Assembly (NCBI GenBank): GCA_007694185.1 | Contig: RECD01000131.1 | Coordinates: 1-33,393 of the forward strand | Source: Planctomycetaceae bacterium | GTDB lineage: Bacteria > Planctomycetota > Planctomycetia > Pirellulales > Pirellulaceae | Reading direction: 5' to 3' | DNA: 33,393 nt | Translations under genes and position numbers: made by a program | The notes under the pieces: generated by a model | Told to the model about the DNA's origin: nothing | Database searches by the model: none | What the model saw: the letters and a program-made list of their open reading frames with translations, nothing else | In this document: one piece after another, positions 833 to 22,512 of the stretch | Position numbering within the stretch: the first letter of the stretch is position 1 | Layout of the letters: each line of letters starts with the position of its first letter

Positions 833-3800
833 ATGATCGGGACGAATCGACCCGCAACGGACGCGTGGCGCGGTCGCCCTTCGCCTGGAGGGCAGGCGCT
901 GCGGATGTTCGCTTGCTTGATCGCCTGGTCGCTTGGCATCTGGTTCTCGACTTCTCATGGCCAGCCACCCCAAAACGCTTCGTCCGCAGGTTCTCAAACG
1001 GCTGAATCGGGCACCGTTTTCCGGTTGTCGGACGATTCTCTCGACGACGCACAGGCCGTTGCCGAATCGATCCCGGCACCGCGGCGTGAGCCAACTGGGT
1101 CGCCGAAAGCGGCTCGCCCGAAGTGGCAACCGACAGCCGATCCGCTGCCGGGCACCGCCGGCGGCGGCAAGTACCATGCGACGAACCCACGGGCGCTTCG
1201 TGAGATGATCGCGCGTCAGGCTGATGCGGCGGACCCTTGGGACACGGCCCGTAAGCTCGGGATCGCTGACAACGCGTCGTACCCGATCCCCGAGTCGTTG
1301 CGGCACGAGAATTGGTTGCGTCAATCGGCGGGGGACGCGGCGGCCAAGAGCACCAGTTGCATCCATTGCCACACCGATGTCGGCAACATGCACCCGCCCG
1401 GATCGGTCCATATCGGCTGCGTCGATTGCCACGGCGGCGATCCGCAAGCCTTCACGCTGAAAGGGGCCCACGTCGCGTCACGTTTCGGGCCGATCTACGC
1501 CGGCGGGGCGAACCCGGAACGGAGCTACACGCTGCTGAATCATGAGGCTCCCGAATACGTCCGGTTCATGAACCCGGGTGACCTGCGAGTCGCTCACATC
1601 GCTTGCGGCCAGTGTCACCCGAACGAGGTGTTGCAGCTTCGCAAGAGCATGATGACGCATGGCGCGATGCTGTGGGGGGCCGCCTTGTACAACAACGGCG
1701 CCAGCCCTTCGAAGTGGTCGAAATACGGCGAATCGTATTCGATGCATGGCAATCCACAGCGATTGCAGACCGTGCCGCCGCCGACGCCTGAGGAGACCCG
1801 CACGAAGGGAATCTTGCCGTATCTCGACCCGTTGCCGCCGTATCAAGTCAGCCAACCCGGCAACGTGCTGCGGATCTTCGAACGCGGCGGACGTTTCTTT
1901 CCCGAAGTCGGCATCCCGGAACGTTTGGAAGAACCGGGGCGGCCTCGTCAACGGTTGGGCGTCCGCGGGTTGGGGACCGACAACCGCACCGATCCGGTCT
2001 TCATCGGCCTGCAAAAAACGCGGTTGCTCGACCCGACTCTTAATTTCCTCGGGACCAACGACCATCCCGGCGATTATCGCAGCAGCGGTTGCAGCGCCTG
2101 TCACGTGTTGTACGCGAACGACCGCAGCCCGATCGCCAGTGGCTTCATCGCCAAATACGGGAACCGCGGCAAGGCGGCGGCGGAAACGGATGACTGGGTT
2201 CAGGCGGTCGACCCGATGATCCCCAAGGACCAATCGGGGCACCCGATCCAGCACAAGTTCGAATTGCGGATGCCGACCAGCCAGTGCATGGTCTGCCACG
2301 TTCACCCCGGCACGAACGTACTCAATACCTATCTCGGTTACATGTGGTGGGATAACGAGACCGATGGCGAATTCATGTACCCGGCGAAGCAGCGTGAGCT
2401 GACGTCCGAAGAATACGTGCGGCTGACTTCGCGAAACCCAGAAGAGGCGGCCGCTCGCGGGTTGTGGTCCGATCCCGAGTTCCTGGCCAACCTGACGGAT
2501 CTGAACCCGCACCTGCGGCATACTCAATTCGCTGATTTCCATGGCCACGGCTGGGTTTACCGGGCTGTATTTAAGAAAGACCGCGCGGGCCAGTTGCTCG
2601 ATTGGCGAGGCGAAGTCGTGCAGTCACCTCAGACGGAGGATTTGGTCAAGGCGGTCGAACCGCCGACGCCGGAAGAGCAGGCTGTCGGCAAAGAACGCGA
2701 CGGCGTCCCGGTCCATCTGATGGACATCCACATGGAACGGGGGATGCACTGCGTCGATTGTCACTTCTATCAGGATGGCCATGGCGACACGAAGCTGTAT
2801 GGCGAAGTCCGGGCGGCGATCGAAATCCAGTGCGTCGATTGCCACGGGACGGCGAGCCGCACTTTGCCGGAAATGCTCGACGCGCAAATCGCGGCCGGCG
2901 AATCGCCTCGGTTGCCGACCAGCGGTCCTGCGGCGGCACCCGGCGGCACCAATCTGCTGGCGCTGCGGACGGCCTTCGGAAAGCCGCGTTTCGAGGTGAT
3001 CCGGCGGCCGGGTGGCAAAACGAAGCTGATCCAGCGGTCCAACGTCGAACCCGATTTGACTTGGGAAGTGGCCCAAACCGCCGACACGATCCGGCCGGGC
3101 TCGGATCATTACAACCCCCGCAGTCATGCGGCGAAGACGTCGCGGTTGGGAGCGGACGGGCGGATCGTTTGGGGCGGGACGTCCGAAGCTGACGTGCAGG
3201 CTTGTGCCCACCGGGACGAAAACATGTCCTGCATCGCTTGCCACAGCAGTTGGAACCCGAGCTGTTTCGGTTGCCATTTGCCGCAACGGGCCAACATCAA
3301 GTCGCCGGAACTGCACAACCTCGGCGACGTGACTCGCAACCGCACCTCTTATAACTTCCAAACGTTGCGTGACGACATCTACATGTTGGCGCGGGACGGC
3401 AACGTGACCGGCAATAAGATCGGCCCGGCGCGGTCGAGTTGCGCGATCCACGTCAGCAGCTTCAACAACAACCGCGAATCGATTTACGCGCAGCAGCAGA
3501 CCGTGTCGTCCGACGGGCTGTCCGGGATCGCCTTCAGCACCAACGTCCCACACACCGTCCGTGGCGGCACGGGCTGGGATCGCGAATCGGATCACAGCCT
3601 ACCGGGCGTTCGCGAAACGAAGTCGTGTACCGATTGCCACCCGTCGGCCGGCGGTGACAACAACGCGATCATGGCGCAACTGGTGATGCAGGGGACCGGC
3701 TTCACGAACTTCATCGGCAAGTATTGCTACGTCGCCGCCGGCGAACATGGCTTCGAAGCGGTCGTGGTGACCGAATCGAGTGAACCGCAAGCGGTGATCG

Positions 3801-5134
3801 GCAGCAGCTTGCACCAAATCGCTTACCCGGACAATTTCCGGCACCATGTCGAGGCTGAGCGAAAGTTAGAACACAGCCACGAGCATCCTGGCCGCGACAT
3901 TCTGGAAACGATCCTGCCGCGATACCGCAAACCGGAAGTGCTCGACCTGCAACACCGCGGCGAGTACCTCTACGCGGCTTGCGGCGAAGGCGGCTTGCGG
4001 GTGTTCGACATCGCCTTCATCGACCACAAGGCTTTTAGCGAACGGATCACCACGGCGCCGGTATCGCCGCTGGGGCAGCGGCTTTATGTCCGCACGAAGT
4101 ACGCGCAAGCCGTCGCGGCGCCGACGACGATCGTCCCCGATCCGACCCGCCAGCAATTACCGGAGAACGAAGAACCGGCGATCCACCCGCTCTACGCCTA
4201 CTTGTACGTCGCCGACAAGTACGAAGGCTTGGTCTTGGTCGGTGCCGGCACGCTGTTGGATGGAAATCCGCTGAACAACTTCCTCGAGCGGGCTTTGACC
4301 TTCAACCCCGGCGGGCTGCTCAACGGGGCTCGGGGAATCCATTTTCACGGCACCTTCGCCTACGTCGTCTGCGACGCGGGGTTGGTCGTGGTCGATTTCT
4401 CCACGCCGCTCGAACCAAAGATCACCGCAGTGGTCGGCGAACCGACGCTCCATCACGCCCACGCGGTCTCGACTCAGTTCCGTTACGCCTTCGTCACCGA
4501 CGATAGGGGCGTCACCGTGCTCGACATTTCTGACCCGGCCCAGCCACATCCGGTGCATCATGTCGAAGTCGAAGACGCTCACGGGATCTACTTGGCACGG
4601 ACTTACGCCTACGTCGCGGCCGGCAAGCAGGGGTTGGTGGTGCTCGACATCTCGCGTCCCGAATCGGCGTCGGTCGACCAAATCTACAGCGCCGGTGGCA
4701 AGATCAATGACGCCCACGACGTGCAGTTGGGGATCACCAACGTCAGCCAATTCGCTTACGTGGCGGACGGCAAGAACGGTTTGCGGGTGATCCAGTTGAC
4801 CGGGCCCGAAGTCGTCGGCAACGACGGGTTCTCGCCGAGGCCGGCTCCGTTCCTGGTCGCGACCTACCCGATTCCCAAGGATGGTCATGCGCTCGCGATC
4901 AGCCGCGGGATCGATCGCGACCGCGCGGTCGACGAATCGGGTAACCAGATCGCGGTCTTCAATCGGGTCGGCGCCCGGCCGCTGAACCCGACCGAGGTCA
5001 ACCGGATGCATCGCCGGCCGGACGGGACGACGTACGTCACGTCGGAGGACATTTTTGACCCGCGGATCTACGATGTCGCGCCGCCGGTGCGAGCCGCCGC
5101 GGCAGCGGAACGGGTCAAACCTAACAAGCGTTGA
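833..5134 (+). CDS. exported decaheme (10 CXXCH) cytochrome fused to an LVIVD-type beta-propeller
   Basis: The protein has 1433 residues. Ten CXXCH haem-attachment motifs have their first Cys at about residues 176, 196, 258, 420, 485, 640, 667, 800, 811 and 932. From about residue 965 to 1340 there are repeated blades of the form YAYVAxxxxGLxVxDIS, typical of LVIVD repeats (e.g. YVAAGKQGLVVLDIS). I kept the start at 833 because the hydrophobic signal core (LIAWSLGIWF) would have no positive n-region if translation began at the alternative ATG at 905; from 833 it has several Arg. The protein should be exported and carry haem c in the periplasm or on the surface. From the motifs I infer electron transfer with a propeller serving as docking or catalytic scaffold; the substrate is unknown. 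No cytochrome maturation or quinol oxidase genes lie next to it. Confidence 0.9.
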   Translation: MIGTNRPATDAWRGRPSPGGQALRMFACLIAWSLGIWFSTSHGQPPQNASSAGSQTAESGTVFRLSDDSLDDAQAVAESIPAPRREPTGSPKAARPKWQPTADPLPGTAGGGKYHATNPRALREMIARQADAADPWDTARKLGIADNASYPIPESLRHENWLRQSAGDAAAKSTSCIHCHTDVGNMHPPGSVHIGCVDCHGGDPQAFTLKGAHVASRFGPIYAGGANPERSYTLLNHEAPEYVRFMNPGDLRVAHIACGQCHPNEVLQLRKSMMTHGAMLWGAALYNNGASPSKWSKYGESYSMHGNPQRLQTVPPPTPEETRTKGILPYLDPLPPYQVSQPGNVLRIFERGGRFFPEVGIPERLEEPGRPRQRLGVRGLGTDNRTDPVFIGLQKTRLLDPTLNFLGTNDHPGDYRSSGCSACHVLYANDRSPIASGFIAKYGNRGKAAAETDDWVQAVDPMIPKDQSGHPIQHKFELRMPTSQCMVCHVHPGTNVLNTYLGYMWWDNETDGEFMYPAKQRELTSEEYVRLTSRNPEEAAARGLWSDPEFLANLTDLNPHLRHTQFADFHGHGWVYRAVFKKDRAGQLLDWRGEVVQSPQTEDLVKAVEPPTPEEQAVGKERDGVPVHLMDIHMERGMHCVDCHFYQDGHGDTKLYGEVRAAIEIQCVDCHGTASRTLPEMLDAQIAAGESPRLPTSGPAAAPGGTNLLALRTAFGKPRFEVIRRPGGKTKLIQRSNVEPDLTWEVAQTADTIRPGSDHYNPRSHAAKTSRLGADGRIVWGGTSEADVQACAHRDENMSCIACHSSWNPSCFGCHLPQRANIKSPELHNLGDVTRNRTSYNFQTLRDDIYMLARDGNVTGNKIGPARSSCAIHVSSFNNNRESIYAQQQTVSSDGLSGIAFSTNVPHTVRGGTGWDRESDHSLPGVRETKSCTDCHPSAGGDNNAIMAQLVMQGTGFTNFIGKYCYVAAGEHGFEAVVVTESSEPQAVIGSSLHQIAYPDNFRHHVEAERKLEHSHEHPGRDILETILPRYRKPEVLDLQHRGEYLYAACGEGGLRVFDIAFIDHKAFSERITTAPVSPLGQRLYVRTKYAQAVAAPTTIVPDPTRQQLPENEEPAIHPLYAYLYVADKYEGLVLVGAGTLLDGNPLNNFLERALTFNPGGLLNGARGIHFHGTFAYVVCDAGLVVVDFSTPLEPKITAVVGEPTLHHAHAVSTQFRYAFVTDDRGVTVLDISDPAQPHPVHHVEVEDAHGIYLARTYAYVAAGKQGLVVLDISRPESASVDQIYSAGGKINDAHDVQLGITNVSQFAYVADGKNGLRVIQLTGPEVVGNDGFSPRPAPFLVATYPIPKDGHALAISRGIDRDRAVDESGNQIAVFNRVGARPLNPTEVNRMHRRPDGTTYVTSEDIFDPRIYDVAPPVRAAAAAERVKPNKR

Positions 5135-5274: not shown

Positions 5275-5360
5275 TAGTGATATCATCAAAGACTCATGCC
5301 GACCCGCTTACAATGGTTCGATGGCGCGATCGTGTGTTGTCGATAAAAGGGAGATTGCGA

Positions 5361-8093
5361 ATGTTTCGACCGGGATTCGAGTTTGCTCCCGATTACCGGC
5401 TCGATCTGTTTCTGGGGCGCGGCCAGTTCGGCCAGGTCTGGCGGACGTCTGCGCCCGGCGGCGTCCTGATGGCGGTCAAGTTCGTCGATCTCGGTGACGG
5501 CCAGTGGCAGAAGGAATACGAGGGGATCCAGCGGATCAAGCAGATTCGGCACCCCAACCTGATGCCGATCACGGCGATCTGGCTGTTGGGGGCGGACGGC
5601 AAGCTGCTGGTCGAATCGACGTCGCAAGACCCGGATGCCGGGACGATCGACGGGATCGTTGTCGACACGATGCAGATGGAAACGCCCACCGGCCAACCCG
5701 ATTGGTTGTCGCGGCACCAGGGGCGTGGCAAGGCGCGGTGGTTGGCGGTCGCGATGACGTTGGGAGGCAAAAGCCTGCTACAGCGGATGGAGGAATGCCA
5801 GCAGCAGGGGCACGACGGAATCCCGCCGAAGGAATTGCTCGGGCTGATGGACGAATCGGCCAAAGGTCTCGATTTTCTCAATTCGCAAACCCACGAATTC
5901 GGTGCCGATCTGGGGACGCTGCAACACTGCGACGTCAAGCCGGCCAACATCGTCCTGGTCGGCTCCTCCGCGGTCGTCTGCGATTTCGGATTGGCGCGGA
6001 TCATGTCGCGGGACCAAGTCACCGCGTCGCGGATCGCTGGGACTCCCGCCTACATGGCTCCCGAAACGATCGGCGGTAAACCGGCGCGGACCAGCGACCA
6101 GTATTCGCTCGCCGTGACCTATTATCACCTGCGGACCGGCGTGCTGCCGTTGAGCGACAACTCGTTGTGGGAAGTGCTCGACGCGCATCGGCTCGGAAAA
6201 TTGAATTTCGATCGGATCGACGAAGCCGAGCGGGAAGTTCTGCGGCGGGCGACGTCGCTGGATTGGGCCAGTCGGTATGAGTCGAGCGGCGAGTTGGTCG
6301 AAGCGTTGCGGGAAGCCTGGCGTTCGACCCAGCGTCCGGCGTTGCAATTGCCGCCCAGTTTGAATCGCGTCGGCGACGCGACGCTGCCGGCTTGGAAACG
6401 TCCTGCGGTGATCGGTTCGGCCGTCGGCGTCGCCCTGCTGGCACTGCTGTTGCTGGGACAGACTTTCGGTGGCAAAGAGACGCCCGCGAATGGCGATGGC
6501 GATGGCGATGTGACCGGCGTGACCAAAAGCGCGGGCCTGGGCGATCCGGAGTCGGGCGACCGGGGCAATCAGGCTGACAGCTCCCTGGCAGGCAATCCGG
6601 GCGAACCGTCGGACACGCAAGTTACCGCCAATTTGATTTGGAACCCGGAAGGTTGGCAGACGCTGCTTGAGCGTGGCGGTAGCGATCCCGCTGCGGTCGC
6701 GACGGAGTTCGTCGGTTGGATCGAAACTTTTCCGGGCTTGGCCAGCCCCTTTCCGATCGGCTTGTCGGGACATGCCCAAGATTTGGAACAAGCTTTCTGG
6801 GCGACAACGGCCGCCAGCGACAATCCGGATGCCGGCAGCGTCCTGTTGACCCGATCGCTCGACCCGCACGTCGTCCGCTTCCCACTCGATCAACTGACCC
6901 GGCTCGCCCACGCCTCATCGAGTACCCACGCCGGCCAGGGTTCGTCCGCGGCGGGCGAGTCTAAAACATCCGACGCGGTTGACGGAAACGGTCAGGTGGG
7001 GATGCGGATGCCGCCGCACGAACCGTTCACCTCCGCGATGACGCTCTCTCCCGATTCGCGTTTCGTCGCCACCGGCGGGCTCGACGGCCGGGTGCGGGTG
7101 TTGCCGATCGACGCCGAACCGGCGGCTGCTGCGGGCGACAACCGGTCGCTGGAGCTGGGCGATTTCGACATCGACCAAATCCTGTTCCATCCGACTCAGG
7201 ATTATTTGTTGGTCAGCGACGGTGCCGGCGGCATTCACTTGGTCAAGTCGCCGGGTGATGCCGGATTCGCTGCGGCAACCGAAGTCCGCTCGATTCTGCT
7301 ACCATTCCCGGTCATTCGGATGGCGGCGGATCGTTGGGGCGAGACGCTGGTACTGCTAGCCGATGACGGCCGTTTGCACACGATTTCGTGGCGTGATTGC
7401 GAGCGGTTTTTGTTGAGCGGCATGCCGCCTGAGCCGAAAGCCTTTTCGACCCCCGGATCGGCGATCCGTTCCTTCGTCGTTCATGAAATTCGCGCCGGAG
7501 AAAACGTGGTGCTGGCGTTCGATGAAGCGGGCGTGTGGAGCGAATACGCGTTGGCCGGCGGCGAATTACTCGGCCGCGCCCCGCTGCTCGACGGCCCGGT
7601 CTTGGCGTCCGACGCACGGCTGACCCCGGACGGCTGGGCGGTCTTTGCCGGCGGCGATTACGGCGCCCTGACGTTCAAACCGCCAGGCATGACGGCCGTC
7701 ATCCCGTTGATCGCTCACCGTGACGCCGTTTCCGACATCGCGATCTCGCCCGATGGCCGGTCGGTCGTCAGCGTCTCACGCGACGGGTGGGCGGCACTTC
7801 GCAAGCTCGACGACCTGCCGAATTTCCTTCCTTTCCGCGATCTCGCCGAAGGCCCTTTGACGCTCGTCCGTTGGTCGCCGTCAGGACGCTGGATCGTCAC
7901 CGGCGGCTACGGCGGCCGCTTGACCTTTTGGGACGCGCGGCATCTCGGTCTGCTGCTTCGTCGATTTCCGATGACCCAATTGCCGACACCAGACGCCCCG
8001 CCCGAAACGTCGCCTGCGGATGACCCGACGTCACCGGAAAAGCCGACCGGAGCGAGTCTGTCGGCGACCGCCTTTCCGCCCCTGCGATCGTGA
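5361..8093 (+). CDS. membrane Ser/Thr protein kinase with C-terminal WD40-like domain
   Basis: The protein has 910 residues from the ATG at 5361, chosen because AGGGAG sits 7 nt upstream; an upstream in-frame start at 5277 adds 28 residues that precede the kinase fold. Visible kinase motifs are the glycine loop GRGQFGQVW (19-27), the ATP lysine in MAVK (K40), the catalytic loop HCDVKPAN (D191, K193, N196), the DFG motif (D208) and the APE motif (E235). About 40 extra residues lie between strands 4 and 5 (86-125). A membrane helix follows at about 350-369, then a polar Gly/Asp/Asn linker. From about 558 to the end are WD40-like units such as LSPDSRFVATGGLDGRVRV and WSPSGRWIVTGGYGG. The kinase is probably cytoplasmic and the propeller extracytoplasmic, giving a receptor-kinase layout. 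The ligand and substrates are unknown. Confidence 0.92.
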   Translation: MFRPGFEFAPDYRLDLFLGRGQFGQVWRTSAPGGVLMAVKFVDLGDGQWQKEYEGIQRIKQIRHPNLMPITAIWLLGADGKLLVESTSQDPDAGTIDGIVVDTMQMETPTGQPDWLSRHQGRGKARWLAVAMTLGGKSLLQRMEECQQQGHDGIPPKELLGLMDESAKGLDFLNSQTHEFGADLGTLQHCDVKPANIVLVGSSAVVCDFGLARIMSRDQVTASRIAGTPAYMAPETIGGKPARTSDQYSLAVTYYHLRTGVLPLSDNSLWEVLDAHRLGKLNFDRIDEAEREVLRRATSLDWASRYESSGELVEALREAWRSTQRPALQLPPSLNRVGDATLPAWKRPAVIGSAVGVALLALLLLGQTFGGKETPANGDGDGDVTGVTKSAGLGDPESGDRGNQADSSLAGNPGEPSDTQVTANLIWNPEGWQTLLERGGSDPAAVATEFVGWIETFPGLASPFPIGLSGHAQDLEQAFWATTAASDNPDAGSVLLTRSLDPHVVRFPLDQLTRLAHASSSTHAGQGSSAAGESKTSDAVDGNGQVGMRMPPHEPFTSAMTLSPDSRFVATGGLDGRVRVLPIDAEPAAAAGDNRSLELGDFDIDQILFHPTQDYLLVSDGAGGIHLVKSPGDAGFAAATEVRSILLPFPVIRMAADRWGETLVLLADDGRLHTISWRDCERFLLSGMPPEPKAFSTPGSAIRSFVVHEIRAGENVVLAFDEAGVWSEYALAGGELLGRAPLLDGPVLASDARLTPDGWAVFAGGDYGALTFKPPGMTAVIPLIAHRDAVSDIAISPDGRSVVSVSRDGWAALRKLDDLPNFLPFRDLAEGPLTLVRWSPSGRWIVTGGYGGRLTFWDARHLGLLLRRFPMTQLPTPDAPPETSPADDPTSPEKPTGASLSATAFPPLRS

Positions 8094-13599: not shown

Positions 13600-14510
13600 C
13601 GGCAGCCTGGCTTTGGCGGAGCGAAACGGTGAAACGGTCGCGTCGGCTTTCCACCGACCGCTGCGGGAAATCGGAGGTCCGATCGGGCTTTGCCACCGCG
13701 CCGCGATACGTCACCGTGATCGGGCTGCTCGGCTGCCGGCCGACGAAAATGCGTCGGCGACTAAACACGGAACTCCATGCTCCTTTTCGGCAAGCCCCCC
13801 GCCACCTCTGCAATCGATTCGGCTAGCCACGACGAAACCGAACCAAACTCCGCCAGCCAAATCGTCCAAACCCGCCTGCCGACTGCCAATTTGGACGCGC
13901 CAGTACTGCCAAATGGACGGCGCTATCCACAAGAAATCTCACTTTGAGACGCGCAGTCTCTCAAGTTGGGCTAGGGAGTTGAAAAAAATTCCGAACTTTT
14001 CCCACATTTACCAGGGACATTTACCTGGCCACAACCGCGTGCCCGCGATTTCAAAACGAGTTTGAGCGGTCAATTCGCGACAATCGTGACGCGGGTGGTA
14101 CAAATCCGGACCGAGCCGGAAAGATTTTCAAGCGATTTGGCGCGCCATTTCCACTGTTGTCACTCCCGAAAGCAGGACGGTGAAGGCCGAATCGAATCCG
14201 AGACAATCGGGCCGATTCGGGGGAACCTCACCCAGTTTCACCGCGTACCAAATGTGCACGGCGGAGCAGGGATTGGAAGTTGTCGTCAAAGTCTTTGATC
14301 TGCGGTCAGTGGCGTACCCTTTGGGACAGTTATCCACGAGAGTTGCCGACCGGTCGCAGGTAGGGACGCAGCACCCATTGTCTGTCCGACATCACGAAGC
14401 CTTTTTTGGAGATGAACGCCAAGCCGACGCGAACCCGGAAACCGACTAGCCCTCTGCGGCTGTGAAGCGACGGGTCGCGAGAACGAGTGTTTGGCGGACA
14501 TTCGAAACCG
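13600..14510. other. long gene-free region upstream of the sigma factor (~910 bp)
   Basis: This lies between the leftward exported protein and the rightward sigma factor. Several short frames are open (longest 13583-14065 on +), but their translations have no protein-like composition. A stretch around 13975-14030 is more AT-rich than its surroundings and could hold a promoter. I found no tRNA-like, riboswitch-like or strong hairpin structure. The length suggests a long regulated leader for the sigma factor or an unrecognised small RNA. Confidence 0.4.
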
Positions 14511-16178
14511 ATGCACGAACATTACCGCGACTCGAAAATCAAAGAACTCCGCGACCAACTGGTCCGGTTCTCGCCCAAGGCCCAAAAGGTTGAACAGGCG
14601 GCGAGGGCGGAAGTGTTGTTGGGAGAAATCCAGCCCGATCGCTGCTACTCGTACGACTTCCTCTGCTATCGGTTGACCAACTACCGACCAGAAAAGGCGT
14701 CGCGGCATACGATCGCACCGGCGGACCTGATTTCCGATTTGCGCCAATTGATCGATGACCTCAGCGAATCATCCGACCTTTCGGTGGCGGAGATCGATGA
14801 ACCGGTCCACTCGGTGGATGACCTCAGCCGCATGTTTCATGTGTCGACCAAAACGATCGTCCGCTGGCGGGACGTCGGTTTGGTCGGCCGTAGGTTTCTG
14901 TTCGGAGGCCGGCGACGGGTCGGCTTCCTGCACAGCACCGTCGAACGGTTCATCGCGAACAACCGCGATCGGATCCGGCGGGGGGAAAGGTTCAGCCAAC
15001 TCAGCGAGGACGAAAAGGGCGAAATGATCCATCGGGCGCGGGTCCTGGCCGACGACGGCGCGAGCCTATCCGAGGTTTCCCGCGTGCTCGGTGAAGCGAT
15101 GCGTCGCAGCCCGGAAACGATCCGTTACACGTTGAAGAATTTCGACAGCCAAAACCCCGCGACCGCGATCTTCCCGAATCATCGGGCGGTACTCGGGAGC
15201 GAGGAAAAGCGGTTGCTCTACCAGCGATTTCGCCGCGGCGAATCGATCGCGCAGTTGTGCAAGCGTTATCAGAGGACCAGGAGCAGCATTCAAAGGATTT
15301 TGATCGAGATGCGTAAAGAAAGACTCAATGAACTGGCGCTGGATTACATCTACAACGCCGATTTCGAAGATACGTCCCGCGAAGCCGAATTCTTGGGTGC
15401 CGAACCGGAACCGGCCGTCGCCCCGCGGAAAGTCCGCGCCCCCAGCGGCTTGCCCAGCTACCTCGCGTCGCTTTACGATTCCGCCCTGCTGACCCGCGAA
15501 CAGGAATACCACCTGTTTCGCAAGATGAATTACCTGAAGCACAAGGCGACTCGCTTGCGTGAATCGTTGCAGTCGGCTCGCAGCAGCCGCACGGCGGTGA
15601 TGGACCAAATCGACGAACTGTACGAACAGGCGGTCAAGACAAAAAACCGAATCGTCCAGTCGAACCTCCGTCTGGTCGTGTCGATCGCCAAGCGGCACAT
15701 GGGGTCGACCGACGACTTCTTCGCCTTGATCAGCGACGGCAACATGTCGCTGATCCGAGCCGTCGAAAAGTTCGACTACGCCCGCGGGAACAAGTTCAGC
15801 ACGTACGCCTCCTGGGCGATCATGAAGAACTTCGCCCGGACGATCCCGAACGAGTTCAAGCACCGCGACCGCTTCCGCACGACCGCCGAAGAATTGTTCC
15901 TCTCCTGCACCGACGAACGGTCCGACCCCTACGCGGAGGAATCGGCGCACCAGCGTCGTCAACGCGAATTGGGCCGAATCCTCAATCGGCTCGACGAGCG
16001 GGAACAAAAAATCATCGTCGCCCGCTTCGGGCTGGGTCGCGGCAACGAGCCGGCGACCCTGAAAGAAGTCGGCCAAGAATTGGGAGTGACGAAAGAGCGG
16101 ATTCGCCAGATCGAAGCGAGGGCCTTGTCCAAACTGCGGGAAGCCGCGGACGCCTCCAAGATCGACCTGGAAACTTAA
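14511..16178 (+). CDS. sigma-70 family RNA polymerase sigma factor with N-terminal HTH modules
   Basis: The protein has 555 residues from the ATG at 14511 (MHEHYRDSKIKELRDQ); a GTG at 14487 would add eight. The C-terminal half is a group 1/2-like sigma factor: region 2 at about 379-447 (NLRLVVSIAKRHMG, then the -10-binding FDYARGNKFSTYASWAIMK) and region 4 at about 488-545 (LDEREQKIIVARFGLG, then the -35-binding TLKEVGQELGVTKERIRQIE). The N-terminal half lacks region 1.1 but has three helix-turn-helix-like stretches: about 100-150 (VDDLSRMFHVSTKTIVRWRD, MerR/excisionase-like), about 175-212 (LSEVSRVLGEAMRRSPETIR) and about 235-270 (ESIAQLCKRYQRTRSSIQRI). It probably redirects RNA polymerase to a specific promoter set; no anti-sigma gene is adjacent. 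Confidence 0.93.
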   Translation: MHEHYRDSKIKELRDQLVRFSPKAQKVEQAARAEVLLGEIQPDRCYSYDFLCYRLTNYRPEKASRHTIAPADLISDLRQLIDDLSESSDLSVAEIDEPVHSVDDLSRMFHVSTKTIVRWRDVGLVGRRFLFGGRRRVGFLHSTVERFIANNRDRIRRGERFSQLSEDEKGEMIHRARVLADDGASLSEVSRVLGEAMRRSPETIRYTLKNFDSQNPATAIFPNHRAVLGSEEKRLLYQRFRRGESIAQLCKRYQRTRSSIQRILIEMRKERLNELALDYIYNADFEDTSREAEFLGAEPEPAVAPRKVRAPSGLPSYLASLYDSALLTREQEYHLFRKMNYLKHKATRLRESLQSARSSRTAVMDQIDELYEQAVKTKNRIVQSNLRLVVSIAKRHMGSTDDFFALISDGNMSLIRAVEKFDYARGNKFSTYASWAIMKNFARTIPNEFKHRDRFRTTAEELFLSCTDERSDPYAEESAHQRRQRELGRILNRLDEREQKIIVARFGLGRGNEPATLKEVGQELGVTKERIRQIEARALSKLREAADASKIDLET

Positions 16179-18609: not shown

Positions 18610-20109
18610 TTACCGCAGGATCGCGGACACCAACTCGCCATGGACGTCAGTGAGGCGGTGGAAGCGGCCTTGGTGTTGGTATACCAGACGCCGGTGGTCG
18701 ATGCCCAGCAGGTGCAACAGCGTGGCATGCAGATCGTGCACACTGACACCGTCGCGCGTGATGTTGTAACTGTAATCGTCGGTCTCACCGTGGGTCAGGC
18801 CGCCGCGAATGCCCGCGCCTGCGAGCCAAATGGTGAAACATCGCGGATGATGGTCACGGCCGTAACTGTCGCTGGTCAGTTGCTCCTGGCAGTAAACCGT
18901 GCGGCCGAACTCGCCTCCCCAAACGACCAACGTGTCATCCAGTAGCCCGCGCTGCTTCAGATCGCTCAACAGGGCCGCCGAAGGTTGGTCGGTGTCGCGG
19001 CACTGGCCCGCGAGCTGTTTGGGCAAATCACGGTGCTGGTCCCAACCGCGATGAAACAACTGGATAAAGCGCACGCCGCGTTCCGCTAGGCGGCGAGCCA
19101 GCAGGCAGTTGTAGGCAAACGAGCCGCGGCGGCCGGCATCGGGGCCATACATGTCCAGCACATGCCGTGGTTCGTCAGACATGTCGGTCAATTCGGGTAC
19201 CGAAGTCTGCATGCGATAAGCCAATTCGTACTGCGCGATCCGGCTGTTGATTTCCGGGTCGGGCGTGGCCTGCTGTTTCAATTCATTGAGCTGCCGCACG
19301 GCATCAAGCATCCGCCGTCGGTCGGTCGCTGCAAAACCGGGTGGATTGGAAAGGTACAGAACGGGGTCACCGACGCCGCGGAACTTGACGCCTTGAAAAT
19401 GCGTTGGCAAGAAACCGCTGCCCCACAGCCGGTCGTACAGCGGTTGTCCATTGGGTCGTCCGGTCCCCTGCGAGATCATCACCACGAAGGCCGGCAATTC
19501 CTGGTTCTCGCTGCCAAGTCCGTAAGCCGTCCACGCCCCCAAGCTCGGCCGTCCCGCCTGCTGTGTGCCGCTGAGTAAAAAGGTGATCGCCGGATCGTGA
19601 TTGATGGCGTCGGTATGCATCGACTTGATGAAACACAAATCATCCGCCACACCCGCGGTATGCGGCAACAACTCGCTCAGCCAAGCTCCGCTGTCGCCAT
19701 GCCGTGCGAACTCAAAGAGCGATGGGGCGACGGGATGTGAGGTTTGCCCGGCGGTCATGCCGGTCAGACGCTGGCCCTTGCGCACCGATTCAGGCAACTC
19801 CTCGCCGAACCGCTTGGCCAACTCGGGCTTGGGGTCGAATAGGTCGATCTGCGAAGGCGCACCGGACTGGAACAAGTAGATGACGCGGCGAGCTTTCGGC
19901 GTGTGGTGCGGCAGCCCGGGTAGACCCATGCCGGCAGTCGGGGCATCGGCCGCTTGCCCGGCGTCTTGACCCAACAGCGACGCCAGTGCGGCGACCCCCA
20001 GACCGCCCGCTCCGCGTTCGAATAACTGGCGGCGAGTCTGCTCGAGCCAACCGCGTGACCGGGGTGTTTCGAAGCCGTCGATAAGCTGTCGTTGTGGCGG
20101 CACTGCCAT
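18610..20109 (-). CDS. DUF1501 family exported protein
   Basis: The protein has 499 residues. It opens with a Tat-type motif TRRQLFERGAGGLGVAALAS (25-44) and continues RRVIYLFQSGAPSQIDLFDPK, the DUF1501 signature. It later has SMHTDAINHDPA, FIQLFHRGWDQH, VVWGGEFGRT and GRDHHPRCFTIWLAGAGI. DUF1501 proteins have a sulfatase/alkaline phosphatase-like fold and are highly amplified in planctomycetes; the enzymatic role is not established. It starts 3 nt after the stop of the cytochrome/DUF1549/DUF1553 gene, the standard two-gene arrangement, so the two are almost certainly cotranscribed. The dead IS sits 124 bp behind its stop. Confidence 0.95.
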   Translation of the reverse strand: MAVPPQRQLIDGFETPRSRGWLEQTRRQLFERGAGGLGVAALASLLGQDAGQAADAPTAGMGLPGLPHHTPKARRVIYLFQSGAPSQIDLFDPKPELAKRFGEELPESVRKGQRLTGMTAGQTSHPVAPSLFEFARHGDSGAWLSELLPHTAGVADDLCFIKSMHTDAINHDPAITFLLSGTQQAGRPSLGAWTAYGLGSENQELPAFVVMISQGTGRPNGQPLYDRLWGSGFLPTHFQGVKFRGVGDPVLYLSNPPGFAATDRRRMLDAVRQLNELKQQATPDPEINSRIAQYELAYRMQTSVPELTDMSDEPRHVLDMYGPDAGRRGSFAYNCLLARRLAERGVRFIQLFHRGWDQHRDLPKQLAGQCRDTDQPSAALLSDLKQRGLLDDTLVVWGGEFGRTVYCQEQLTSDSYGRDHHPRCFTIWLAGAGIRGGLTHGETDDYSYNITRDGVSVHDLHATLLHLLGIDHRRLVYQHQGRFHRLTDVHGELVSAILR

Positions 20110-20112
20110 GGG

Positions 20113-22512
20113 TCATTCCTTGGTGATGGCTTCATCGAGGTTGAGAATCGTGGTTGCTAGCGCCGTGTAGGCAGCGAGTTCCGCGGCGGGGACGTCTTTC
20201 ATCGGTATCGAATCACCCACTGCAATGAATTGCTCCGCTGCCTCGGCGTCGCCGGCAAATCGGTCGCGAAAATCGGCGAGCACTTCGCGTAGCACCTGTT
20301 GTTCCTCAGCCGATGGACTGCGGCTGGTCAGCAGTCGAAAGGCGTAAGCGATGCGGGCATCATCGTCCGCCGGAGCCAAGCGAAGCACGCGCTCCGCCAA
20401 TGCTCGCGACGCTTCGACAAACGCCGGGTCGTTCATCAAGACAAGTGCCTGGATCGGCGTGTTGGTGCGCGGCCGGCGGACCGTGCAGATCTCACGATTG
20501 GGAGCGTCCAAGGTTGTCATCGATGGCGGCGGAATCGTCCGCCGCCAGAACGTGTACATGCCGCGACGATACAGATCGGCTCCCTGGCTTTGATCATATG
20601 CAATGTGCGCCGATGCCAATTCTTCCCAAAGCCCTTCCGACTGGTACGGACGCACGCTGGCGCCGCCGATTCGCGTGACCAGCAAGCCGGATGCGGCAAT
20701 CGCCTGGTCGCGGAGCAACTCCGCCGGCAAACGGAAACGCGGTCCGCGAGCCAACAGGCGATTGTCGCGATCGCGCTGGTAGGATTCCGCGTCCGCCGCG
20801 GAGGATTGACGATACGTCGCGCTGCTGACAATCAGCCGGTGCAATGCCTTGACGTCCCAGCCGCTGTGAATGAACCACGTCGCTAGCCAATCGAGCAATT
20901 CGGGATGACTAGGCCGCTCGCCCTGCGTTCCGAAATCTTCCGGCGTGGCGACCAAGCCGGTCCCAAAGTGCAGTTGCCAGTAGCGGTTTACGATCACCCG
21001 CGCCACCAGCGGGTTCGCCGGGTCAACCAACCAACGAGCCAATCCAAGCCGATCGGCGGTCGCTTTTTCAGGCAGCGGCGGCAGCGCAGCCGGCACGCCT
21101 GGCTGCACCGCCTCGCCGGCTTGGTCGTAGGCTCCGCGCACGTGAACGTGAGTCGCCCGTGGTGTGGGCAATTCCTGCAGCACCATCGTCACGGGTACCG
21201 CGGAGAGCAACGCTCCCTGCTGCTTTTCGAGGTCCTGCACCTGCTGCGTCAGTGCCCCCTTCAGCACAATCGCCTCGGCATCGTCGCCGAGTTGATTGAT
21301 CTGAGTTTGCAGCGAATCGAGTTGACTGGACCACTGGTCGATCTGCATCTGCTGGTCGGGCGTCGTCAGCCGCAAAATCGGCGGAGCGTTCCCGTGACCG
21401 CGGCCTTGCTCGTCAATGCTGTTAAAGAACGCATAGAAACGGAAGTAGTCGGCTTGAGTCAGCGGATCGTATTTGTGATCGTGACATCGCGCGCAGGCGA
21501 GCGTCAGTCCCATCCAAACGGTCGCCGTCGTTTCAGCCCGATCGGCGACGTACTCGACGCGGAATTCTTCGGGGATGATGCCATCTTCATCGTTGATCCG
21601 GTGATTACGGTGAAAGCCGGTAGCGATCCGCTGGTCGCGTGTGGCCCCGGGCAGAAGGTCACCGGCGATCTGTTGGATCGTGAACTGGTCAAACGGCAGG
21701 TTGCGGTTGAATGCCTCAATCAACCAATCGCGCCACGGCCACATGGTGCGGAAGATATCGCCTTGGTAGCCGCCGGAATCCGCAAAACGTGCGGCATCCA
21801 TCCAGTCCAGTGCCATTCGTTCGCCGTACGCCGGCGAGTCGAGCAGGCGATCGACTTGCCGCAGGTAGGCGTCGGGCGAACCGTCCGACTCAAACACGTC
21901 GAGCTCGGCGGGAGTCGGCGGCAGACCGGTGAGGTCCAATGACAACCGGCGAAGCAGCCGAGCGCGGTCGGGCGGCAACGCGGGCGTCAGCCCTTGTTGC
22001 TCAAGCCTCGCGAGCACGAAAGCATCGATCGCATTCTCTGGCCAGGCTGTATCCTTGACCACCGGAACGGCCGAAGATCGCGGCGCTGCCAGCGACCAGT
22101 GCGGCTCGTACTGCGCCCCCTGCTCAACCCACTGGGCCAGCAGTTCGATATCGGCGGCGGTCAACTGCTGGGCGGCGTCGGGGGGCGGCATCCGTAGTGA
22201 CTTATCGTCCGCGCGGATGCGTCGGATCAATTCGCTCTGATCAGGTTGGCCCGGCACGATCAAGCTCCCGACTTCAAGCACGGGCCGCAGCACTGCCGGA
22301 TCGTCCAATCGCAGATCGGCTTGGCGCGTCGCGGAATCGGGCCCGTGACACGGAAAGCATTTCGCCGCCAGCAGCGGACGAACCTGCCGATCGAATGACA
22401 GCGAATCCGCAGCCGGCTCCACCGCCAGCGAGCCCGGAGCGTCAATCAGTAGGCAAGCGGCCGATATCAGCAGCGCTGCCGAAGTGATCGCGCCGATCGG
22501 TCGTGAAGTCAT
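20113..22512 (-). CDS. planctomycete cytochrome C / DUF1549 / DUF1553 protein
   Basis: The protein has 799 residues. A signal peptide (1-30) is followed by a PSCyt1 cytochrome domain with FDRQVRPLLAAKCFPCHGPD (haem C52, C55, H56) and the distal LRMPPP segment (107-111). DUF1549 follows (about 155-365; LSLDLTGLPPTPAEL, DWMDAARFADSGGYQGD), ending with a second haem-type motif CARCHDHKYDP (340-350). A Gln-rich coiled-coil linker lies at about 385-435, then DUF1553 (about 480-765; PLVARVIVNRYWQLHFGTGL, RRPRTNTPIQALVLMNDPAF). It is shorter than many relatives because no carbohydrate-binding insert is present. These proteins are exported and thought to act in envelope redox or polymer handling; substrates are unknown. 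It forms an operon with the DUF1501 gene. Confidence 0.95.
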   Translation of the reverse strand: MTSRPIGAITSAALLISAACLLIDAPGSLAVEPAADSLSFDRQVRPLLAAKCFPCHGPDSATRQADLRLDDPAVLRPVLEVGSLIVPGQPDQSELIRRIRADDKSLRMPPPDAAQQLTAADIELLAQWVEQGAQYEPHWSLAAPRSSAVPVVKDTAWPENAIDAFVLARLEQQGLTPALPPDRARLLRRLSLDLTGLPPTPAELDVFESDGSPDAYLRQVDRLLDSPAYGERMALDWMDAARFADSGGYQGDIFRTMWPWRDWLIEAFNRNLPFDQFTIQQIAGDLLPGATRDQRIATGFHRNHRINDEDGIIPEEFRVEYVADRAETTATVWMGLTLACARCHDHKYDPLTQADYFRFYAFFNSIDEQGRGHGNAPPILRLTTPDQQMQIDQWSSQLDSLQTQINQLGDDAEAIVLKGALTQQVQDLEKQQGALLSAVPVTMVLQELPTPRATHVHVRGAYDQAGEAVQPGVPAALPPLPEKATADRLGLARWLVDPANPLVARVIVNRYWQLHFGTGLVATPEDFGTQGERPSHPELLDWLATWFIHSGWDVKALHRLIVSSATYRQSSAADAESYQRDRDNRLLARGPRFRLPAELLRDQAIAASGLLVTRIGGASVRPYQSEGLWEELASAHIAYDQSQGADLYRRGMYTFWRRTIPPPSMTTLDAPNREICTVRRPRTNTPIQALVLMNDPAFVEASRALAERVLRLAPADDDARIAYAFRLLTSRSPSAEEQQVLREVLADFRDRFAGDAEAAEQFIAVGDSIPMKDVPAAELAAYTALATTILNLDEAITKE

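Follow-up and report, generated by a model that had tools for sequence, protein, structure and literature searches.

Porin genes paired with genes for multihaem cytochromes are already known from several bacteria, and the complexes that they encode include MtrCAB, OmbB-OmaB-OmcB, and OetABI. Reported porin families comprise MtrB, OmbB, ExtB/E, and ExtI (PMC7399161), with OetI as a further family (PMC10553843), and conduits encoded by ext genes have been reported in Geobacter (PMC6148476). Two clusters are reported in an Acidobacteria genome, and complexes of the MtrB and ExtB/E types in Holophaga (PMC7399161). In freshwater Verrucomicrobia, the gene for a porin, for which 20 or more membrane segments are predicted, adjoins that for a cytochrome with eight haem sites (PMC5615132). 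The barrels of MtrB, PioB, and MtoB are described as having 26 strands (PMC10654088). The ext cluster of Geobacter sulfurreducens (extHIJKLMNOPQS) joins a porin, an inner-membrane b-type cytochrome, and ExtM, a 12-haem protein of this selenite/tellurite operon (PMC5877670). Here, we describe a distant relative of ExtM encoded at positions 833–5134 on the forward strand of a 33,393-nucleotide stretch of DNA from a Planctomycetaceae bacterium (GenBank assembly GCA_007694185.1, contig RECD01000131.1), hereafter called the window. The gene encodes a decahaem protein that carries an LVIVD β-propeller, and in most of its relatives it stands beside a gene for an outer-membrane-type barrel.

The family of the decahaem protein shares with the ext cluster, as the latter is reported, a porin, several multihaem cytochromes, and an inner-membrane protein (PMC5877670); it differs in having ten haem sites instead of twelve, an inserted propeller, and associated genes for a NuoEF-like protein and for an iron-sulfur and cyclic nucleotide monophosphate-binding (Fe-S/cNMP) protein. 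Its likeness to MtrCAB, OmbB-OmaB-OmcB, and OetABI lies in the pairing of a barrel gene with a multihaem cytochrome gene. The differences lie in a barrel modeled with 18 strands and resembling AlgE, in one large propeller-bearing cytochrome, and in that no small periplasmic decahaem cytochrome of the MtrA type is established. The verrucomicrobial clusters have the same pairing, and one decahaem locus (L145, Opitutaceae) comes from that phylum; by description, on which this comparison is based, the verrucomicrobial cytochrome has eight haem sites, without mention of a propeller (PMC5615132). No description of an LVIVD propeller on a multihaem cytochrome, and none that links alginate export to multihaem extracellular electron transfer, was found in the full-text literature searched, which covers few subscription journals; the mention of LVIVD in a Methanosarcina paper concerns quinoproteins (PMC6315138).

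The window gene consists of one open reading frame (ORF) that encodes ten CXXCH motifs, at residues 176, 196, 258, 420, 485, 640, 667, 800, 811, and 932, whereas ~0.02 such motifs are expected by chance from the cysteine and histidine content of the protein. These motifs suggest that the protein binds ten haems. It contains no CXXCK motif, and none of the multihaem Pfam models listed for it rises above its own cut-off. The Pfam LVIVD model (PF08309; cut-off 20.2 bits) matches four stretches and scores 79.2 bits (E 1.4e-22). The N terminus holds a probable Sec signal and, by eye, no lipobox; translation may begin not at the ATG given below but at residue 25. The features of the gene, with haem sites recognized by motif, are as follows:

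833–5134, forward strand: whole gene, exported decahaem cytochrome with LVIVD propeller, 1433 amino acids (one ORF from ATG; PF08309; CXXCH count; full-length relatives)
905–961, forward strand: probable Sec signal segment, residues ~25–43, hydrophobic, ending in TSHG (read by eye)
1328–3667, forward strand: cytochrome part, residues ~166–945, distant ExtM relative (NCBIfam ExtM; profile match to propeller-free relatives)
1358–1372, forward strand: haem site 1, CIHCH (CX4CH in 4 of 113 aligned rows)
1418–1432, forward strand: haem site 2, CVDCH
1604–1618, forward strand: haem site 3, CGQCH (CX4CH in 40 of 113 aligned rows)
2090–2104, forward strand: haem site 4, CSACH
2285–2299, forward strand: haem site 5, CMVCH
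2750–2764, forward strand: haem site 6, CVDCH
2831–2845, forward strand: haem site 7, CVDCH (27 residues after site 6 in 113 of 113 rows)
3230–3244, forward strand: haem site 8, CIACH
3263–3277, forward strand: haem site 9, CFGCH (11 residues after site 8 in 113 of 113 rows)
3626–3640, forward strand: haem site 10, CTDCH
3716–4882, forward strand: LVIVD β-propeller, probably seven-bladed, residues ~962–1350 (PF08309; ends placed from the model of homologue L137)
4913–5032, forward strand: conserved tail behind the propeller, residues ~1361–1400 (DRDRAVDESGNQIAVF...; alignment; present in propeller-free relatives too)

Haem site 10 is separated from the first blade by ~30 residues, the position of the blade having been obtained by mapping the start of the propeller match in the model of L137 (residue 726) to residue ~962 of the window protein through the shared haem-10 motif. 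A previous sequence-only reading of the window had described these features (ten CXXCH motifs and an LVIVD propeller in one exported protein of 1433 amino acids, a gap of ~30 residues between them, and haem sites 8 and 9 only 11 residues apart), and our analysis bears them out, with the export signal read by eye. The same reading had named as grounds for doubt a fusion that never occurs elsewhere, a frame error that joins two genes near position 3720, and a propeller score below threshold; each was examined and none was found. Indeed, the protein continues across the junction in 112 distinct full-length relatives, found in many assemblies, which rules out a frame error or chimera near 3720. 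We found nothing in favor of a sequencing or frame artefact, and the chance that one created this gene is negligible. The window gene encodes one intact, widely conserved protein.

Searches of a contig collection yielded 138 relatives, of which 80 loci were kept for locus counts. Most of the 80 are titled Planctomycetota or Acidobacteriota, with single records from Opitutaceae and Rhodanobacteraceae, and their identity to the window protein ranges from 47 to 83% in the best segment. Genome samples of the order (396) and of the phylum (392) contain matches to the decahaem protein at E 1e-20 or better in 52 and 38 genomes, respectively. Isolates that carry the gene belong to Rhodopirellula, Singulisphaera, and Granulicella; Rubripirellula obstinata and Granulicella aggregans are examples of strains in which it adjoins the barrel gene described next. 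A quick tree of 72 rows is mostly structured by phylum with few exceptions and some long branches; the labels Planctomycetota and Acidobacteriota require four changes each.

The gene that dominates the surroundings of these relatives is typically an open frame of ~650–750 amino acids on the same strand as the decahaem gene, whose cluster is represented in 69 of the 80 loci (neighbor families were single-linkage clusters of stop-to-stop ORFs, and counts of loci based on them are rough). Homology searches for this barrel gene placed it directly upstream of the decahaem gene in 65 loci and elsewhere in the locus in six, including L146 and L151, in which the barrel overlaps the stop-to-stop frame of the decahaem ORF. 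Two loci, L074 and L105, lack the barrel; both come from the window's genus. Seven loci with less than 1.5 kb upstream and no barrel match were set aside in this count. The window contig starts 832 bases 5′ of the decahaem gene, which limits the upstream view, and no barrel gene was found in those 832 bases. The sole barrel match in the window genome lies on contig C274 (18511–20379, minus strand; E 4.7e-282), unlinked to the decahaem gene. In L074, the place next upstream of the decahaem gene, held by the barrel in most other loci, is taken by a gene of the Porin_O_P family (5527–7218, forward strand; E 4.4e-27). This gene was considered and dropped, as it is absent from L105, which has a different gene at that place.

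Linkage between the two genes is matched by their co-occurrence. Among the 392 genomes of the phylum sample, the barrel is found in 38, the decahaem gene in 38, and both in 37. A set of 80 genomes, picked non-randomly from earlier results, comprised 40 with the decahaem gene, 38 without it, and two ambiguous ones: G449, which has a partial, weak decahaem match (4e-23) and no barrel, and G744, which has a weak barrel match (3.2e-38) and no decahaem gene. The barrel is present in 40 of the 40 genomes with the decahaem gene and in none of the 38 without it. The decahaem-propeller protein and the outer-membrane-type barrel thus form a conserved two-gene module. The sequence-only reading had stated that no partner redox gene adjoins the decahaem gene and had proposed that the protein might be a self-contained electron conduit. 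The statement is correct for the 33 kb of the window and fails for the family, in which the barrel gene is the usual upstream neighbor. A conduit that works without partners would agree with the lack of a redox gene directly beside the decahaem gene in the window; the linkage and co-occurrence of the barrel across the family render this explanation highly improbable.

A model of the Roseiconus barrel, built from a 54-row alignment (predicted template modeling score, pTM, 0.81), contains 18 long strands by our count, with the first ~70 residues mostly of low confidence. Its best Foldseek match is Pseudomonas AlgE (3rbh; E 2.5e-15, 13% identity), an alginate exporter that resembles the partner barrel and not the window protein. 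MtrB is not among the 50 structural matches listed for the model, and an MtrB-like barrel, which would have 26 strands, is not supported. The Pfam model Alginate_exp was found in one of 18 barrel members and fell just below its cut-off in the barrel of the window genome, and NCBIfam gave only a weak porin match, in five of 54 barrels. The gene pair follows the pattern reported for porin-cytochrome systems (PMC5615132; PMC7399161), as it would if the module were a conduit like MtrCAB in which some of the decahaem chain runs inside the barrel and brings electrons across the outer membrane to an outside acceptor. We consider such a conduit unlikely, given a barrel modeled with 18 strands and closest to AlgE against the 26 strands reported for MtrB, PioB, and MtoB (PMC10654088), and a cytochrome part of ~780 residues, unlike a compact MtrA. 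An 18-stranded barrel would be more likely to admit a small substrate or to serve for docking than to enclose a haem wire as in MtrCAB.

Comparison of the cytochrome part with known families pointed to ExtM. All 36 members of the cytochrome-only alignment are matched by the NCBIfam ExtM model, the best of them at E 4.8e-30. The cytochrome part of the window protein, however, scores 69 bits and the whole protein 65 bits against an ExtM (NF040943) cut-off of 800, far below the equivalog threshold. The window protein is thus a relative of ExtM and not an ExtM itself. Of the marks of the wider ExtM superfamily, the collinear haem segments are present and the twelve haem sites are not, ten being found here. 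Propeller-free ExtM-like proteins occur in 20 of the 392 phylum genomes (1e-40 or better). In these proteins and the query used to find them, L019 (21 in all; L019 and L163–L182), no LVIVD-like pattern was found; 12 CXXCH motifs are present in 18 (17 of the 20 as well as L019), the other three being shorter open frames. L019 (409–2910) matches ExtM with 222 bits (E 8.3e-66), also below the cut-off. By eye, it has a C-terminal membrane anchor.

The decahaem family and L019 share five collinear stretches, and a profile-profile comparison of the decahaem and propeller-free families aligns 517 columns that extend from haem 1 to haem 10 (E 3.7e-60). Separately, the propeller-free profile aligns over 34 columns with the tail (41% identity, E 1.4e-5, probability 80), and this match occupies the position expected for it, ahead of haem site 12 of L019. 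Forty column-shuffled control profiles gave a best E of 0.0035 and a median of 0.46; further controls gave 0.76 for the reversed tail, 0.2 for the barrel, 0.56 for the propeller, and 0.22 for the propeller against the propeller-free profile. By HMMER sequence-to-profile search alone, the tail match is not significant (E 2.4–5.3). The propeller-free proteins of Planctomycetota are thus collinear with the decahaem family from haem 1 to haem 10 and, more weakly, in the tail, and differ in their mostly 12 CXXCH motifs and in having no propeller. This arrangement is most simply explained by an ExtM-type cytochrome that acquired a propeller between haem 10 and its tail, together with the loss or gain of two haem sites; the reverse history, in which a propeller was lost, is also conceivable.

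The relationship to ExtM raises the question of whether the module reduces a substrate in the periplasm and has a pore of its own through which that substrate enters. Short, local stretches of sequence that match octahaem nitrite reductase, at E 6.4e-6 for the profile of the whole protein and E 2.4e-4 for that of the cytochrome part, point the same way. In such a system, the barrel would admit a small substrate such as an oxyanion, the decahaem protein would reduce it, and the propeller would serve as a substrate or scaffold domain. Loss of ExtI is reported to lower selenite and tellurite reduction in Geobacter, with a selenite-selective channel as the preferred explanation (PMC5877670), and a barrel modeled with 18 strands seems too narrow for a decahaem wire. 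Selenite is an analogy only, and the haem sites, as described below, do not single out a haem with an open ligand position. We regard this arrangement as possible, though rather doubtful.

Conservation of the haem sites was assessed in an alignment for which 146 family ORFs were reduced to 126 that cover the query residues (starting at or before 230 and running through 1380) and then to 113, window protein included, by removal of identical cores. Ten haem sites were counted directly in 110 of the 113 rows; of the other three, L092 contains masked letters, and L067 and L068, whose N termini were trimmed in the script, hold ten CXXCH motifs in their full ORFs. Site 3 has the form CX4CH instead of CXXCH in 40 rows, as does site 1 in four, so a count of CXXCH alone underestimates the number of haem sites. 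The spacings of 27 residues between sites 6 and 7 and of 11 between sites 8 and 9 are constant, the propeller columns are at least 89% filled in all 113 proteins, and the tail is kept in all. Ten histidines outside the motifs are invariant (residues 187, 213, 470, 474, 491, 628, 633, 650, 793, and 907), and four more are kept in 105 to 111 rows. The ten invariant histidines would suffice as distal ligands for ten bis-histidine haems. An open catalytic haem was sought by histidine conservation and by CXXCK motifs, and none was singled out.

A hydrophobic stretch precedes haem 1 in 109 of the 112 relatives, and a crude pattern detects a lipobox-like sequence in 21 of them (both counts cover the relatives alone). 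One clade of relatives (L147 and L148, and less clearly L150 and L152) has an ACEHA motif, similar to a lipobox, behind this stretch, as would suit lipoproteins anchored in a membrane.

The fold of the propeller was examined in a model of L137, a homologue of 1154 amino acids (68-row alignment; pTM 0.85), in which residues ~726–1108 form a propeller. The best match among 962 chains was 1l0q (Z 19.9, root-mean-square deviation 2.3, 273 aligned residues), which tied with the seven-bladed designer protein 7bid (Z 19.8). The propeller is probably seven-bladed, a number suggested by these matches. Many unrelated propellers score close behind 1l0q and 7bid; the fold can therefore be read from the model and the function cannot.

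Genes that might supply the decahaem protein with electrons surround the barrel gene of the window genome. Beside the barrel, C274 encodes a divergently oriented extracellular dockerin/HbpS-like protein and a small protein without a family match. The contig continues with an Fe-S/cNMP-binding protein of 941 amino acids that has NuoG/HoxU-like Fe-S parts, followed by a NuoEF-like protein; further on are a c7-type multihaem cytochrome of 1056 amino acids, a membrane protein of 341 amino acids, and two c554/c7-type proteins. Clusters of such neighbors recur near the decahaem gene among the 80 loci (numbers titled Acidobacteriota in parentheses): HbpS-like protein in 46 (14), c554-type protein in 22 (9), membrane protein in 15 (10), c7-type cytochrome with ten CXXCH motifs in 12 (10), Fe-S/cNMP protein in 12 (10), and NuoEF-like protein in 8 (8). 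In the set of 80 genomes, the inner-membrane protein is present in 34 of the 40 with the decahaem gene and two of the 38 without it. The Fe-S/cNMP protein at E <1e-60, a threshold chosen after the rows had been viewed, is present in 30 of 40 and 0 of 38, respectively; at 1e-30, the contrast weakens to 39 of 40 and 12 of 38 because shorter related proteins match. Association of these supply-chain genes with the decahaem gene is clear but looser than that of the barrel.

The HbpS-like protein of the window genome (genome G000, contig C274, 20894–23416, forward strand, divergent to the barrel; equivalent to L159, 2895–5417) combines a Planc_extracel signal, below its cut-off, with a type I dockerin and an HbpS-like domain. 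Used as a query (1e-15), it matched 23 of the 40 genomes with the decahaem gene and one of the 38 without it; the 23 include 22 of 22 in the window's class and one of 18, a weak match, in the rest of the phylum. This query probably missed distant members, and the class-bound appearance understates the range, because the neighbor cluster spans 46 of the 80 loci, 14 of them acidobacterial, and its member in L147 (Phycisphaerales) is HbpS-like by Pfam (the scan covered two locus members and the window-genome member). The HbpS-like extracellular protein may thus be a third regular partner. Dockerin domains were found on it in L083 and in the window genome. A Poly_export/SLBB protein lies near the decahaem gene in L129, L135, L139, and L141, all titled Acidobacteriota (scanned in L135, E 1.8e-19). 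The dockerins and Poly_export proteins, together with AlgE as the best structural match of the barrel, would suit a polysaccharide system in which the barrel moves a polymer out or in, with the HbpS-like protein and the propeller to bind this polymer and the haems to alter it by oxidation. Poly_export is confined to four of the 80 loci and the electron-chain genes are left without an explanation, which makes a polysaccharide system very unlikely.

We propose that the decahaem protein is an outer-membrane-docked oxidoreductase that ends a trans-envelope electron chain, a reading whose prospects of being right or wrong we judge to be about equal. The exported ten-haem ExtM-type cytochrome with its inserted LVIVD propeller would be sited at the outer membrane with the 18-stranded AlgE-like barrel, and the propeller would most likely dock the cytochrome on the barrel or on another surface partner. 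Electrons would pass from NADH to the NuoEF-like flavoprotein and the Fe-S/cNMP protein, then to the inner-membrane protein, to periplasmic multihaem cytochromes, and finally to the decahaem protein, which would act as the terminal oxidoreductase or as the last relay of the chain; compartments are assigned here from protein families. We put forward with greater reserve, as possible but less than even in likelihood, that this route from NADH to the outer membrane is an undescribed pathway common to Planctomycetota and Acidobacteriota that ends in a propeller-bearing ExtM-type decahaem protein at an AlgE-like barrel.

Several observations weigh against this proposal. In the window's own genus, the barrel gene is not adjacent to the decahaem gene. 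Residues conserved in at least 90% of barrels comprise, by our count, 16 lysines or arginines and 20 aspartates or glutamates, a mixture of charges that gives no hint of the cargo. Six of the 40 genomes with the decahaem gene lack the membrane protein at 1e-6 and ten lack an Fe-S/cNMP match below 1e-60, while G449 has strong matches to both supply proteins with no barrel and only its weak, partial decahaem match. The distribution of the decahaem gene is patchy (52 of 396 genomes of the order). Finally, Rhodopirellula, Singulisphaera, and Granulicella are aerobic heterotrophs in which extracellular respiration is not known.

Among the other genes of the window, the one next downstream of the decahaem gene encodes a WD40-repeat protein kinase (5277–8093, forward strand); a kinase-like ORF likewise lies downstream of the decahaem gene in L074. 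Obg is encoded further downstream in the window on the opposite strand. A PSCyt1/PSCyt2/PSD1 protein (20113–22512, reverse strand) adjoins a DUF1501 protein (18610–20109, reverse strand), a pair that is frequent in planctomycetes. A sigma-70 family protein (14487–16178, forward strand) has a long N-terminal part with weak helix-turn-helix matches; its best NCBIfam match, MzaA, is far below the cut-off.

The decahaem family has consequences for how multihaem proteins are found and where they are expected. For about a third of the relatives, a search restricted to CXXCH overlooks haem sites, and a multihaem cytochrome family associated with metalloid reduction has apparently gained a propeller domain by insertion. 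If the proposed chain is correct, these bacteria, which are mostly regarded as aerobic heterotrophs, would carry out redox chemistry at the outer membrane unlike that of MtrCAB. The module is present in named isolates and can be tested there. The known range of electron chemistry at the bacterial outer membrane would become wider with a strictly conserved decahaem protein and its dedicated barrel, retained across two large phyla whose members are usually not considered electroactive.

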